NCBI GenBank assembly: GCA_016124665.1
Contig: WGNH01000027.1
Span: forward strand, 33,036-97,035
Source: Alphaproteobacteria bacterium
GTDB taxonomy: Bacteria > Pseudomonadota > Alphaproteobacteria > Caulobacterales > Maricaulaceae
Direction of reading: 5' to 3'
DNA length: 64,000 nucleotides
A program made the translations under genes and the position numbers. The notes beneath the pieces were generated by a model that ran no database searches, was not told the DNA's origin, and saw only the letters and a program-made list of their open reading frames with translations. Shown here in pieces: positions 3,836 through 9,186 of the stretch. Position 1 is the first letter of the stretch. The number at the start of each line of letters is the position of its first letter.

Positions 3836-5824
3836 ATGGCCGCCATGACGTCTCTTGATCTCAACACCCTGAAACCCATGGCAAATGCCGTTCGCGCCCT
3901 GGCGATGGATGCGGTCGAAGCCGCCAATTCCGGTCATCCCGGCATGCCGATGGGCATGGCGGATGCCGCCACCGTCCTCTGGGCCCGCCATCTGAAGTTT
4001 GATCCGGCGGATCCCGACTGGCGTGACCGCGACCGCTTTGTCCTCTCGGCGGGGCATGGCTCCATCCTGATCTATGCCCTGCTGCATCTCACCGGTTATG
4101 CGGATGTTACGCTGGACGAGATCAAGAATTTCCGCCAGCTCGGTTCGAAAACACCGGGCCACCCCGAATTCGGCCACACCACCGGCGTCGAGACCACGAC
4201 CGGGCCGCTGGGACAGGGCATTTCCACTGCGGTCGGCATGGCGCTGGCCGAACGCATTCTCAACGCCCGTTTTGGCGATGATCTTGTCGATCACCGCACC
4301 TGGGTGATCGCCTCTGACGGTGATCTGCAGGAAGGGATTAGCCATGAAGCCATCTCGCTGGCCGGCCATCTCGGGCTCAAACGCCTCACTGTCCTGTGGG
4401 ACAATAATTCCATCCAGATCGACGGCGATACGGCGCTGGCCGAGACCTCTGACGTGCTCAAACGCTTTGAAGCAGCCGGCTGGACCACCGATTCCGTGGA
4501 CGGTCATGACATGGAAGCGGTCGATGCCGCGCTGGCCCGCGCCAAAACCTCTGATAAGCCGGTCCTGATTTCCTGCAAGACAGTGATCGGGTTCGGAGCC
4601 CCTACCAAGGCCGGAAAGGCCTCCAGTCATGGTTCGCCGCTGGGCGGTGACGAGCTGGCCGGGGCCAAACAGGCGCTGGGCTGGCCGCATATCGCGTTCG
4701 ACATCCCTGAAGAGATCCGCGCCAACTGGACCGCCGTCGCCGAAGGCGGAGCCATCGCACGGAAAGCCTGGGAAGGACGTTACAGCAACACGTCACGGCG
4801 CGAGGAATTCGACGCCGCCTTCAAGGCCGGACTGCCCCTTGAAGCCGCCCGCAAACTGGCCGACTGGCGCCGTGAAGTGGCCGCCGAAAAGCCGAATCTC
4901 GCCAGCCGCGCCTCCTCGGGACGGGTTCTGGAACAGATTGTGCCCGTCATGCCGGAGCTGGTCGGCGGCTCGGCGGACCTCACCGGTTCCAACCTCACCA
5001 AGACACCGGATCAGTCGCCCATTCAGGCCGGCGATTATGGCGGCCAGTATATCTATTACGGCGTCCGCGAGCACGGCATGGCGGCGTGCGCCAACGGCCT
5101 GTCCCTGCACGGCGGCGTGCGGCCCTATATCGGCACCTTCCTGGTCTTTGCCGATTACTGCCGTCCGGCCATCCGTCTTGCGGCGCTGATGGACCAGCCC
5201 GTGACCTATGTGTTCACCCACGATTCCATCGGCCTTGGCGAGGATGGCCCCACCCACCAGCCGGTCGAGCATCTCGCCTCCTTGCGGGCCATGCCCAATG
5301 TCCGCGTCTTCCGTCCGGCCGATGCGATAGAGACCGCAGAGAGCTGGGAGCTGGCCCTGTCGCACCAGACCGGACCAACGCTTCTGGCGCTGTCACGGCA
5401 GAAACTGCCCTTTGCGCGGCAGGATGACGGGTTGGAAAACCTGTCGGCACGCGGGGCCTATGTGCTGCGCGACATCGAAGCGGCAAAGGCCGTGATCATT
5501 GCGACCGGCTCGGAAATCGGTATTGCCCTTGAAGCGGCGGACATTCTCGCCGGGAAGCAGATTCCGGTTCGTGTTGTCTCTGCGCCTTGCGTGGAAATCT
5601 TCCTCGAGCAGGACCGCGCCTATCAGGACAGCGTGTTGCCGGAGGGATTGCCGCGCATCGCGGTCGAGGCCGGGCTGCGCTATGGCTGGGACGCCCTTAT
5701 CGGCCGAGAGGGCGGCTTTGTCGGCATGACCGGCTTTGGTGCCTCGGCACCTGCCGAAGCGCTCTACGAGCACTTCGGCATCACCGCGGACAACATTGTC
5801 AAGGAGGTGCTGGAACGCGTCTAG
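3836..5824 (+). CDS. tkt: Transketolase
   Basis: [77 protein letters not shown]. Confidence 0.95.
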
Positions 5825-7008
5825 CCGACGCGTTCAATCACGCCATAGCCGAAGAGCTGGTTCAGCGCCTTCTGGGCCTCTTCCTCTCCGGCCGCCTCGA
5901 AGGCGGAGAGGTTGAACACTTCGCCATCCAGTACCTTGTCGAGCCCGGCTTCAGCCGCAGACGGGAAGATCAGTTCACCGCCAGCCGTGATCAGCACAAG
6001 CCGGTCCTCATCCTCCGCCAGACGCCAGGGAATGTCGGGACGAATCCGGAATTTCGCACCCGGCGTTGTCGCCGCTCCCCGACCGGTAATGGCGCCTTCG
6101 GAATAGGGCGGCCGCGAGCGGATGAAATTGTCGACAAACAGGTCGAAGGCATTCTCGAGATTGGCTTCTTCCGCAATGATTTTGACCAGCGAGTTGAAAT
6201 GCGCCTCGGCCTGCGCCCGGTCATAGTCGGCGCGCGCATAGCCGGGCGGCAGCGACTGCCGGAATTCCGGATGCCGCAAAGCGACTTCGGACACGGCTTC
6301 CAGCATCAGGTCCGCCCAGGTTTTCACAATCATGCCAACCGTGATGTGCAGGCTGTCGGCCGAGCCCTGTGCCTGCGCATCATGCATCAGGCCGCGTGGA
6401 ACATAGGCGCAATCGCCCGCCTTGAGGACGAATTCCTCGACCAGTTCCCCGGGCTGGACATGATCCGGGTTGAAGCCTTCGCCACGATAGGGCTTGTCGA
6501 CCGATTGATCATAGAGCCGCCACAGCTTCTCGCCTTCGACCTGGAGCACGAAGACATCATGGTCGTCATAATGCGTCCGGAAGCCCTGATTGTTCGGCGG
6601 CGTCAGATAGATATTGGTCTGCACATGGCTGGTGAAGACCGATTCCATCGCCCGGCAGAAACTTTTCAGCCCCAGATCGGCCTGGTGCAGATGCGGCAGG
6701 ATCAGCGTGCCACCTTCCTGGTAGAGATTGGCGATCGCGCCGCGGTCCGCATATCCATTCGAGAGCAGGAACTGGTCGCGAGTGATCGGAGGATCGGCGC
6801 GGGCCATATCGACGTCATCGCCGTGGAAATCACGGCTGGCGAGCAGGGTATCGACCCGCGCGACCGACAACAGCTCCTTGTAGCGGTCAGGCTCGTTGCG
6901 CGAAACGATCAGCGCCTTCTGCTCGAAATAGGTCTTGAAGAAGTCCTCAGACCCGTTCGGGCCGATGCAGTAATCCAGAACGTCGCGTCCCCAAGGATGG
7001 TCAGCCAT
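5821..7008 (-). CDS. JmjC/cupin (ribosomal-oxygenase-like) Fe(II)/2-oxoglutarate-dependent oxygenase
   Basis: [37 protein letters not shown] (HxD) and [13 protein letters not shown] (distal His); start taken at [16 protein letters not shown]. Confidence 0.8.
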
Positions 7009-7243
7009 ATTGTCCCCACGCATTTGATGATGTCGCAGAGCGGTTGCGCGGCGACTTTGTTCCAGTGAAATCAGGAATGAAGCAACTGTCCAGCCATGTT
7101 TGCCGAAAATACCGCAGCCAGCGGGCATTGGCGTCGATTGGCCGCATCACCCCCCATTTCGGAGCATGCCGCCGGGCGTTGCATGCGGCTGGCCAGTCAG
7201 GGGACCGGCCAGCTCCCACGCCATAAAGGCAGTTATGTCGGAA

Positions 7244-7717
7244 TTAACAGCGGCGGCCGCGGCCGATCGGATCGCCATAAGTCCCGGTATCGCTGTCTGT
7301 GCAATTACGGCGGCGGCCACCCCGGCCATTACCAACAGGATCGGCATAAGTGCCCGTATCGCTGTCCGTGATGCCGGATGTCCGCCCGCGACTGCCGCGG
7401 CCATTGCCCACCGGGTCGGCATAGCTGCCGGTATCATTGTCGGTGATTCCCGATGTGCCCCTGCCGCGTCCGCCACGGCCATTGCCCGCCGGATCCGCGT
7501 AAGGACCGGTATCACTGTCGGTGATGCCGGTCGTACGTCCTCCTCCCCGCCCGTATCCGGCGGCGTCGGCATAGGCACCGACATCAGCATCGGTAATGCC
7601 GGTATAGCTCCCGGTCGTGGCACAGCCGGTGACCAGGCCTGCAGCACCTGTCGCCAGCCCGGCCCCGGCGACTTTCGTCAGAAAGGACCGGCGGCTGAGT
7701 TTTGATTTCCTGGCCAT
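7244..7717 (-). CDS. Tat-signal repeat protein, 5 units of (GI)TDSDTGxYADPxGNGRG
   Basis: MARKSKLSRRSFLTKVAGAGLATGAAGLVTGCATT (Tat/lipobox-like) followed by Asp/Gly-rich repeats, C-terminal unit bracketed by two Cys. Confidence 0.85.
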   Translation of the reverse strand: MARKSKLSRRSFLTKVAGAGLATGAAGLVTGCATTGSYTGITDADVGAYADAAGYGRGGGRTTGITDSDTGPYADPAGNGRGGRGRGTSGITDNDTGSYADPVGNGRGSRGRTSGITDSDTGTYADPVGNGRGGRRRNCTDSDTGTYGDPIGRGRRC

Positions 7718-7756
7718 GTCATACTCCTTGCCGGCACGCCGTCCGGCATCAAATGA

Positions 7757-8332
7757 TTAGCAGCGATCACCCCGGCCGATCGGATCGCCATAGGTGCCGG
7801 TATCGGAATCCGTGCAACGGCGGCCTCCGCGGCCATTGCCCACCGGGTCAGCATAGGCACCGGTATCGCTATCGGTGACGCCTGTCCGGCGGCTGCCGCG
7901 GCCATTTCCGGCCGGATCGGCATACGTACCGGTATCGCTGTCGGTGATACCCGACCGGCGGCTACCGCGGCCATTCCCGGCCGGATCGGCATACGTACCG
8001 GAATCGCTGTCGGTGACGCCAGTCCGGCGGCTGCCACGGCCATTTCCGGCGGGATCGGCATAGGTCCCTGTATCGCTGTCGGTGATGCCGGAATTGCGCC
8101 GCCCGCGGCCATAACCGGCGCGATCGGCATTGCTGCCACTATCGCTATCGGTCACACCCGTGCGCCCGTATCCGGCGCGGTCCGCATAACTGCCGCTGTC
8201 GGAATCCGTGCGTCCGGTGTAATTCTGCGCGAGCGCACTGCCGGTCACGGTTCCGGCGGCACCGAGCGCAACGCTGGCACCGGCCACGCGCGTCAGGAAT
8301 GAGCGCCGGCTGAGTTTACCCTTTTTGGCCAT
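7757..8332 (-). CDS. Tat-signal repeat protein, 7 units of TDSDTGTYADPAGNGRGSRR
   Basis: MAKKGKLSRRSFLTRVAGASVALGAAGTVTGSALAQN then tandem units; start placed at internal Met of ORF 7757..8440. Confidence 0.85.
   Translation of the reverse strand: MAKKGKLSRRSFLTRVAGASVALGAAGTVTGSALAQNYTGRTDSDSGSYADRAGYGRTGVTDSDSGSNADRAGYGRGRRNSGITDSDTGTYADPAGNGRGSRRTGVTDSDSGTYADPAGNGRGSRRSGITDSDTGTYADPAGNGRGSRRTGVTDSDTGAYADPVGNGRGGRRCTDSDTGTYGDPIGRGDRC
7800..8220. repeat. Intragenic tandem repeat, ~69-bp period (23 aa)
   Basis: Units such as ccggtatcgctgtcggtgatacccgaccggcggctaccgcggccattcccggccggatcggcatacgta recur with few changes. Confidence 0.8.
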
Positions 8333-8474
8333 GATCCGGCCTCCCCTGTTGTCTGTCATCCGGACGGTGCCGGGTCCCTCGCAGCGAAATACTATTCCTG
8401 TGAAAGGGTTGTGGTCAAATGGAATCAAGTATTTCATCAAATAAATCGGCTATTTAACCTGCATTATATAAGAC

Positions 8475-8489
8475 TGATAATCACTCGCA
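8475..8489 (-). promoter_or_regulatory. Weak Fur-box-like half site upstream of the second repeat gene
   Basis: TGATAATCACTCGCA: left arm matches TGATAAT fully, right arm partially. Confidence 0.3.
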
Positions 8490-8548
8490 AAAAAGAAGGC
8501 GTTGCAGATCAGCCTGTAATTGGTCAGGGGCCGTGTCCGGACAAGAAA

Positions 8549-8576
8549 AAACCGGCAGCCCGAAAGCCGCCGGTTT
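8549..8576 (-). terminator. Rho-independent terminator for the third repeat gene
   Basis: AAACCGGC...GCCGGTTT stem; on the minus strand followed by a T-rich tract (ggttttttcttg). Confidence 0.75.
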
Positions 8577-8600
8577 CTTCAATTCCAACGGTCGAGCGGA

Positions 8601-8954
8601 TTAGCCCCCGCGACCGCGTCCTGCCGGATCCGAACAACCCGATGTGTCGCTGTCGGTATAGCCGGAATTGCCGCGGCCATGCCCGGCATTGTCGGCGCAG
8701 CCACCGGTATCGCTGTCGGTGTAACCGGTATAGCCGGTACCGCGGCCAGCCTGGTCGGCGTAGGAACCGCTGTCATTGTCGGTGATACCGGTGCGGCCAT
8801 TGCCTGCCGGATCCGAATTGCCACCGCTGTCGGAATCGGTACGGCCACGGATCATGGTGGCACCCGCGACGGCACCAACGGCGCCGGTGATGGCAACGCC
8901 ACCCACAACGCGTGTCATGAATGAACGGCGGCTGAGTTTACCTTTTTTGGCCAT
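8601..8954 (-). CDS. Tat-signal repeat protein, 4 units of TDSDTGxxADxAGxGRG
   Basis: MAKKGKLSRRSFMTRVVGGVAITGAVGAVAGA... then repeats; start placed at internal Met of ORF 8601..8996. Confidence 0.85.
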   Translation of the reverse strand: MAKKGKLSRRSFMTRVVGGVAITGAVGAVAGATMIRGRTDSDSGGNSDPAGNGRTGITDNDSGSYADQAGRGTGYTGYTDSDTGGCADNAGHGRGNSGYTDSDTSGCSDPAGRGRGG

Positions 8955-9077
8955 GAGAAATGGACCTCCCTTGAACTGACTGAATAAGCTGCGCATCCCC
9001 CGCGGAGCTGATTTCGCGGTGCAGTTATGCGGCGAATTGTCCCTGGGTCAAATGGAAATTTGTATTTACTTGGTATC

Positions 9078-9186
9078 TGATAGTCATTCTCATAAAAAAG
9101 CGCTCTCAGGTTGAAAATAATGGCTAAATTCTCGCTTCTGATAATCATTATCAGAATCAATGCTTGATTACTGATACTCATTCTCA
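9078..9186 (-). promoter_or_regulatory. Three Fur-box-like sites (9078-9092, 9139-9153, 9172-9186)
   Basis: TGATAGTCATTCTCA, TGATAATCATTATCA (perfect 7-1-7 inverted repeat matching the classical Fur consensus), TGATACTCATTCTCA. Confidence 0.75.

Follow-up and report, generated by a model that had tools for sequence, protein, structure and literature searches.

Described Systems Closest to the Locus

NO66 (RIOX1) and MINA53 (RIOX2) are ribosomal-protein oxygenases that combine a JmjC_2 domain with a C-terminal helical part and carry an HxD..H triad and an NxYLTPP stretch. All of these features recur in an Fe(II)- and 2-oxoglutarate (2OG)-dependent oxygenase encoded in the stretch of DNA analyzed here, 64,000 nucleotides of an alphaproteobacterial genome (Maricaulaceae; contig WGNH01000027.1, positions 33,036 to 97,035), hereafter the window. 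In contrast to NO66 and MINA53, however, the window enzyme is linked not to ribosomal genes but to three genes, A, B, and C, for repeat-containing precursor proteins with twin-arginine translocation (Tat) leaders. YcfD/RoxA, the hydroxylase of Arg81 of ribosomal protein L16, is likewise a protein hydroxylase of the JmjC_2 superfamily, but it differs from the window enzyme in several respects, as described below.

Two families of ribosomally synthesized and post-translationally modified peptides (RiPPs) are also comparable. In the biphenomycin pathways, BipG and PbsQ are JmjC-type 2OG oxygenases with a precursor encoded alongside, as at this locus; however, the accessible parts of the two reports describe an ornithine target, short macrocyclic precursors, and many other enzymes, and mention no Tat leader, repeats, or iron context (PMC12707348, PMC12257519). 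Bufferins, which are modified by MNIO (DUF692) enzymes, resemble the present system in their exported ribosomal precursors, in the use of a signal peptide as leader, and in the iron dependence of the enzyme, and they bind metal (PMC12452194). They differ in that MNIO is not a JmjC enzyme, the chemistry is Cys-based, export is by Sec rather than Tat, and the metal is copper rather than iron. Membership of the locus in the bufferin/MNIO class was rejected, as it has Tat leaders, few or no Cys residues, and no third neighbor gene conserved across clades. Neither BipG/PbsQ nor the bufferins combine this enzyme type, export route, repeat, and metal.

β-Hydroxy-Asp is found in siderophores made by nonribosomal peptide synthetases (NRPSs), such as alterobactin and cupriachelin, with an Fe/2OG hydroxylase under iron control. 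The ligand chemistry proposed here is alike, but theirs is non-ribosomal, whereas here the backbone is gene-encoded and repeated; to our knowledge, all β-hydroxy-Asp siderophores come from NRPS assembly lines. Finally, the HiuABC/FoxB reductase systems resemble the gammaproteobacterial versions of the locus, which contain a PepSY_TM gene, sometimes accompanied by a gene for a small membrane protein and, at two loci, by a TonB receptor gene; they differ in using foreign siderophores and in having an operon without a peptide or oxygenase gene (PMC12424826). A search of the open-access literature found no description of this precursor–oxygenase pair, which occurs in marine bacteria and suggests an undescribed ribosomally made iron binder.

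Co-Occurrence of the Oxygenase and the Repeat Proteins

The oxygenase and the repeat proteins are inherited together. Of the 249 genomes surveyed in the window's order, an ortholog of the oxygenase (E<1e-60) is present in 50 and absent from 199; repeat proteins are present in 50/50 of the former and 0/199 of the latter (Fisher p 2e-51). The repeat scan found 49 genomes, all within the 50, and the 50th (G177) has TDSDPTDASGYGRG repeats directly upstream of the oxygenase gene. No repeat proteins were found in the 18 genomes with weaker oxygenase matches only. In a second alphaproteobacterial order, repeats occur in 12/12 genomes with the oxygenase and 0/185 without it (Fisher p 2e-19). The co-occurrence survey for which the original prediction had called thus gave a near-perfect result in two independent orders. 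The p-values take no account of common descent, and more weight lies on the patchy distribution of the pair within families and on its altered gene order.

The pair is also present in Erythrobacteraceae and Gammaproteobacteria, so that pairing at the locus level, which is the level of the gammaproteobacterial evidence, extends over four clades. Locus tables were built by degenerate-pattern scans of public genome contigs and are biased to close relatives. An automatic call placed a Tat-leader, Asp-rich open reading frame (ORF) directly upstream of the oxygenase on the same strand in 58 of 62 alpha- and gammaproteobacterial loci. Three of the four exceptions carry repeats when read by eye: L033 is partly masked and L046 lies at a contig edge, with readable repeats in both, and L028 has its precursor downstream of the oxygenase. 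The fourth, L040, has a truncated gene and no repeats. Gene order varies (upstream, downstream in L028, or divergent, as in six loci of the second order), while the pairing is constant. Orphan precursor loci elsewhere were found only in genomes that hold the oxygenase, and across clades no neighbor is conserved besides precursor and oxygenase.

Precursor genes that are co-localized and co-inherited with a tailoring enzyme, a conserved Tat leader (SRRSF), and repeated cores are features of RiPP systems, and all are present here. Collectively, these genomic patterns make it very probable that the oxygenase modifies the repeat proteins.

In the six loci read from the second order (L161–L166), the divergently transcribed precursors are short, with two units of the type TDADNGSITDAAGWGRG. 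Their Tat motif is preceded by a cytoplasmic stretch, KTLTDxxIxT, which is conserved across paralogs and is possibly an enzyme recognition site. In Erythrobacteraceae, one precursor copy is usual, and a tandem duplication is present in L063 (6933–7931).

Family, Fold, and Active Site of the Oxygenase

The oxygenase matches PF08007 (JmjC_2) with E 1.3e-30 and is the sole PF08007 protein of the window's genome. Its AlphaFold2 model has a predicted local distance difference test (pLDDT) score of 90.7 and is closest to human NO66, with a template-modeling (TM) score of 0.70, followed by MINA53 and then YcfD (~0.55). A sequence search also ranks NO66/MINA53 nearest (E ~1e-35), in line with the structure search. 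Across 42 homologs, the HxD...H (HYD...H) iron triad does not vary, nor do the motifs around it, in agreement with the intact Fe(II) motif of the original prediction; that prediction had named YcfD as an example of such enzymes, but the window enzyme is closest to NO66/MINA53. In a phylogenetic tree, the enzymes associated with repeats fall into a single supported group, apart from 30 YcfD-like proteins; the deeper branching order is unsure because some branches, those of the YcfD clade included, are long. Clustering with L16-type oxygenases, the outcome named beforehand as speaking against the predicted system, was sought in tree, structure, and neighborhood and did not appear: an L16/YcfD-type assignment was rejected in view of the separate clade, the lower TM score, and the absence of a Tat Asp-repeat ORF from the YcfD-like loci (0/30).

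The enzyme thus has the family and fold of NO66/MINA53, but its putative substrate almost lacks the His expected for a histidyl hydroxylase. By alignment, of the residues with roles in NO66, Asn326 and Tyr328 (within NxYLTPP) are kept, and the position of Ser421 is an invariant Gly. This substitution and the near absence of His from the repeats disfavor a His substrate. Indeed, taking the repeats as substrate, His was rejected as the hydroxylation target, as the mature repeats are nearly His-free (0.3–0.9%).

Repeat Sequences and the Candidate Modified Residue

The leader MA[KR]K[GS]KLSRRSF[LM]T, which contains a typical Tat motif, is common to the products of genes A, B, and C, as are units of the Maricaulales type TDSDTGxYADPxGNGRG. 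Each unit contains exactly three Asp residues (12 in the 4 units of A, 22 in the 7 of B, and 15 in the 5 of C, as totals per protein), and the rest of each protein is nearly free of Asp. Across Maricaulales, 1267/1365 Asp residues fall in triads, and the total is a multiple of 3 in 47/67 precursors (p 8e-10). The repeats of Erythrobacteraceae are of the type TDSDPNDRAGYGR, and those of Gammaproteobacteria are of the types SDSDSSDRSGR and GTDSSDQSGGE. What survives across the diverged repeats is the motif [ST]DxD(x2-5)DxxG, which makes Asp the favored candidate for modification; there is hardly any His or Lys, and each of Arg, Asn, Tyr, and Pro is missing from some repeats.

On this comparison, Asp is the likely site of modification. 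The likeliest product would be β-hydroxy-Asp, because protein hydroxylases of the JmjC type usually target C-beta and Asp is a residue that FIH can use (PMC9814778).

Except for weak Tat-signal matches, the repeats have no family match in Pfam or NCBIfam. No match was found in the PADLOC defense library or in Rfam, and the PHROG phage library gave matches only to families of unknown function. The gene B product is predicted by AlphaFold2 to be disordered (pLDDT 38.8).

Gene Organization and Putative Regulatory Sites

The features of the locus are listed in Table 1. Reading of the genes bore out the arrangement first proposed, i.e., three paralogous repeat proteins with near-identical Tat leaders on the minus strand followed by the oxygenase, and the proposed counts of 5, 7, and 4 units are correct when read in coordinate order (C, B, A).

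Table 1. Genes and predicted regulatory features of the precursor–oxygenase locus (window positions).
Feature	Positions	Strand	Description
Fur-box-like site GATACTCATTCTC	9173-9185	.	2 mismatches; 14/19 to Fur consensus at 9167-9185
Fur box, overlapping 19-mers centered on GATAATCATTATC	9134-9158	.	exact 13-mer at 9140-9152; 16/19 at 9134 and 9140
Fur-box-like site GATAGTCATTCTC	9079-9091	.	2 mismatches
Gene A	8601-8954	minus	Tat-leader precursor, 117 aa, 4 Asp-triad units
Intrinsic-terminator-like hairpin 3' of gene A	8545-8580	minus	16-bp stem, U-rich 3' arm, -35.8 kcal/mol, z -4.6
Weaker Fur-like site	8476-8488		3 mismatches
Promoter-like site of second unit	8463-8490	minus	TTGCGA-16-TATAAT; overlaps Fur-like site 8476-8488
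Gene B	7757-8332	minus	Tat-leader precursor of 191 aa with 7 units; signal peptidase site ALAQ
Gene C	7244-7717	minus	Tat-leader lipoprotein precursor, 157 aa, 5 units, lipobox VTGC
Oxygenase	5821-7008	minus	Fe(II)/2OG-dependent JmjC_2 oxygenase, 395 aa, NO66/MINA53-type fold

The sequence of gene A shows no evident signal peptidase AxA or other cleavage site. The A/B/C trio recurs in many Maricaulales loci, in many of which gene A is the conserved first gene, and a purine-rich stretch precedes the start codon of A, B, C, and the oxygenase alike. The genes probably form two transcription units, A and B-C-oxygenase, because a terminator-like hairpin and a promoter-like site lie between A and B; the hairpin is absent from the output of a separate promoter/terminator pattern scan. 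Of the positions in the window, only four reach 14/19 or more against the Fur consensus; three lie at 9134–9185, upstream of A. The Fur-like boxes proposed to precede the genes hold for A, where one is an exact match, and in weaker form for B, but no Fur box lies directly before C.

The 235 bp that separate gene C from the start of the oxygenase gene (7009–7243) contain no clear gene; Maricaulales relatives mostly have a gap there as well. An orphan fifth precursor paralog, away from any oxygenase, is found elsewhere in the window's genome (contig C15, 7359–7820; loci L004 and L159), followed by a gene for an acyltransferase-like membrane protein.

Proposed Link to Iron

Sites upstream of the first precursor gene that score at least 14/19 to the Fur consensus were counted against AT-matched windows of the same loci, some of which are near-duplicates. 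Such sites are present in 5/27 Maricaulales loci compared to 0/162 controls and in 8/15 gammaproteobacterial loci compared to 5/90 controls. Fur boxes are strong in Hyphobacterium (the window's genus), in part of Maricaulis, and in about half of the Gammaproteobacteria.

In most Gammaproteobacteria (14 loci), a PepSY_TM gene (PF03929) lies directly 3' of the oxygenase gene, and the encoded proteins are ~60% identical to one another. A profile of this protein finds FoxB (7ABW), a ferri-siderophore reductase, with E 1.9e-6. A TonB receptor gene is next after the PepSY_TM gene in L048 and L049, and L046 adjoins a heme-uptake operon. The Fur boxes in distant Gammaproteobacteria and the FoxB-related protein in their operons lend new support to the iron linkage that had been proposed from the window, and an iron role of the system appears fairly probable from this genomic context.

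Five gammaproteobacterial loci also have a gene for a small membrane protein nearby. The protein, undescribed so far, has ~135–150 residues, starts with WW..MG.WRW.N, and ends with GRL[YF]; its gene is near the PepSY_TM gene at L045 (6803–7207), L048 (7010–7423), L041 (2899–3348), and L027 (4195–4611). Ferrioxamine use by Caulobacter needs HiuB (PepSY) and HiuC, a small membrane protein (PMC12424826). By its size and place, the gammaproteobacterial protein may be a HiuC-like partner.

Proposed Mechanism and Alternatives

We favor, with moderate confidence in the explanation as a whole, a RiPP-like system, linked to iron starvation, for the modification of multi-core peptides, the steps of which are not independent of one another. 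When iron is scarce, Fur repression would be lifted at the promoters of both transcription units, A and B-C-oxygenase. In the cytoplasm, the NO66-like oxygenase would use Fe(II), O2, and 2OG to hydroxylate side chains in each repeat, most likely the triad Asp residues of [ST]DxD(x2-5)DxxG at C-beta. The modified chains would then be exported by Tat, A with no evident cleavage site, B as a soluble form, and C as a lipid-anchored one; that these three localizations form a relay is speculation. Each unit could offer up to three α-hydroxycarboxylate (β-hydroxy-Asp) ligands, sufficient for one Fe(III), and the peptides might capture ferric iron outside the cytoplasm or pass it on there. The FoxB-like PepSY_TM reductase would free the iron in the gammaproteobacterial version.

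A more specific form of this proposal is possible and is put forward tentatively: a widespread class of ribosomal iron chelators, in which Tat-exported Asp-triad chains would acquire, through NO66-like hydroxylation, a hexadentate β-hydroxy-Asp site for Fe(III) in each unit, with uncleaved, soluble, and lipid-anchored forms relaying iron to a FoxB-like reductase. If true, gene-encoded, repeat-based versions of such ligands would open a new way of making iron ligands that can be read and engineered at the DNA level. Bacterial NO66-like oxygenases, whose known relatives hydroxylate ribosomal proteins, would gain a natural substrate, and Tat would prove able to export a multi-core peptide already modified in the cytoplasm.

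Several observations weigh against the proposed system. In Pseudohongiella-type repeats, the motif has shrunk to DxxDxxG, with two Asp per unit, and the FIH precedent for Asp hydroxylation comes from a distant JmjC enzyme. None of the 14 Erythrobacteraceae loci has an E. coli-type Fur box, and several Maricaulis loci score at background. A PepSY_TM gene is missing from the alphaproteobacterial operons, and in the window's genome a search for a PepSY_TM partner gave no close homolog of the gammaproteobacterial protein but remote PF03929 matches only, with no Fur boxes near them. The reductase step is therefore indicated only by neighborhood, and only in Gammaproteobacteria. No TonB receptor or uptake partner lies beside the orphan precursor loci examined. 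Induction of an Fe(II)-dependent enzyme under iron starvation is a mild paradox. All of the evidence is sequence-based: what can be read directly are the parts, the intact active site, the pairing from genome to genome, the Fur boxes of several lineages, and the neighboring PepSY_TM and TonB receptor genes; the reaction, the modified residue, iron binding, and the role in uptake are what we infer from them.

The alternative that survives best keeps the same enzyme–substrate pair but makes the product an extracytoplasmic iron buffer or protective sink, not an uptake system, with PepSY_TM recycling the iron in Gammaproteobacteria. Lipid-anchored and periplasmic forms, many binding units per chain, and alphaproteobacterial loci without a TonB receptor would suit such a sink, for which the copper-binding bufferins are a precedent as modified metal-sequestering peptides (PMC12452194). 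Yet the Fur boxes predict expression at low iron rather than at excess, and PepSY_TM and TonB receptor genes lie within gammaproteobacterial operons; we regard this alternative as unlikely.

We also judge it improbable that a RiPP-like pair oxidizes a residue other than Asp (Ser, Thr, or Gly, or Arg, Asn, or Tyr in the Alphaproteobacteria) for a role such as signaling, adhesion, or competition. The RiPP enzymes BipG and PbsQ do hydroxylate ornithine (PMC12707348, PMC12257519), GxGR is conserved in the alphaproteobacterial repeats, and homologs of the oxygenase occur in lasso-like clusters. The iron-linked context argues against it, however, and so does residue conservation: since most gammaproteobacterial units lack Arg, Asn, Tyr, and Pro, the residues shared by all clades are Asp, Ser/Thr, and Gly.

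A third alternative, in which the repeats bind Ca2+ or are structural surface repeats and Asp hydroxylation tunes Ca2+ affinity, is less probable still. The DxDxG spacing resembles Ca2+ loops, and β-hydroxy-Asp/Asn is found in Ca2+-binding EGF-like domains. Nevertheless, Fur control and PepSY_TM neighbors do not fit this explanation, the gammaproteobacterial unit TDSSDQSGG misfits an EF-hand or RTX loop, and no Pfam family is matched; the lack of a predicted fold for the gene B product is weak evidence, uninformative rather than refuting. An ordinary ribosomal-protein hydroxylase with repeat genes adjacent by chance would agree with the fold of the NO66/MINA53 ribosomal oxygenases and with the status of the enzyme as the only JmjC_2 protein in the genome, but perfect co-presence and co-absence in two orders, by which chance neighborhood was rejected, several gene orders, and a clade apart from YcfD make it extremely improbable.

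More Distant Oxygenase Homologs

The outgroup nearest to the oxygenase is cyanobacterial (L067–L069, L071, and L072) and sits in lasso-like clusters. Those of the loci that were read encode an asparagine-synthetase-like protein, an HprK-like protein, an ABC transporter, and precursors such as YEQPSLKKYGTMKLLT, which suggests that cyanobacterial lasso peptides are tailored by JmjC enzymes. Occurrence of more distant relatives in peptide clusters points to peptide hydroxylation as a broad role of bacterial NO66-like enzymes. In Pedobacter alluvionis, a JmjC_2 enzyme gene (L073, 7983–9209) lies directly 3' of a LanM-like lanthipeptide synthetase gene. The Streptomyces clavuligerus megaplasmid encodes a cupin/JmjC protein of 32% identity (L176, 6031–7188) after a 48-aa hypothetical ORF; genes for an S9 peptidase and for an ABC transporter are nearby, and this may be another peptide pathway.

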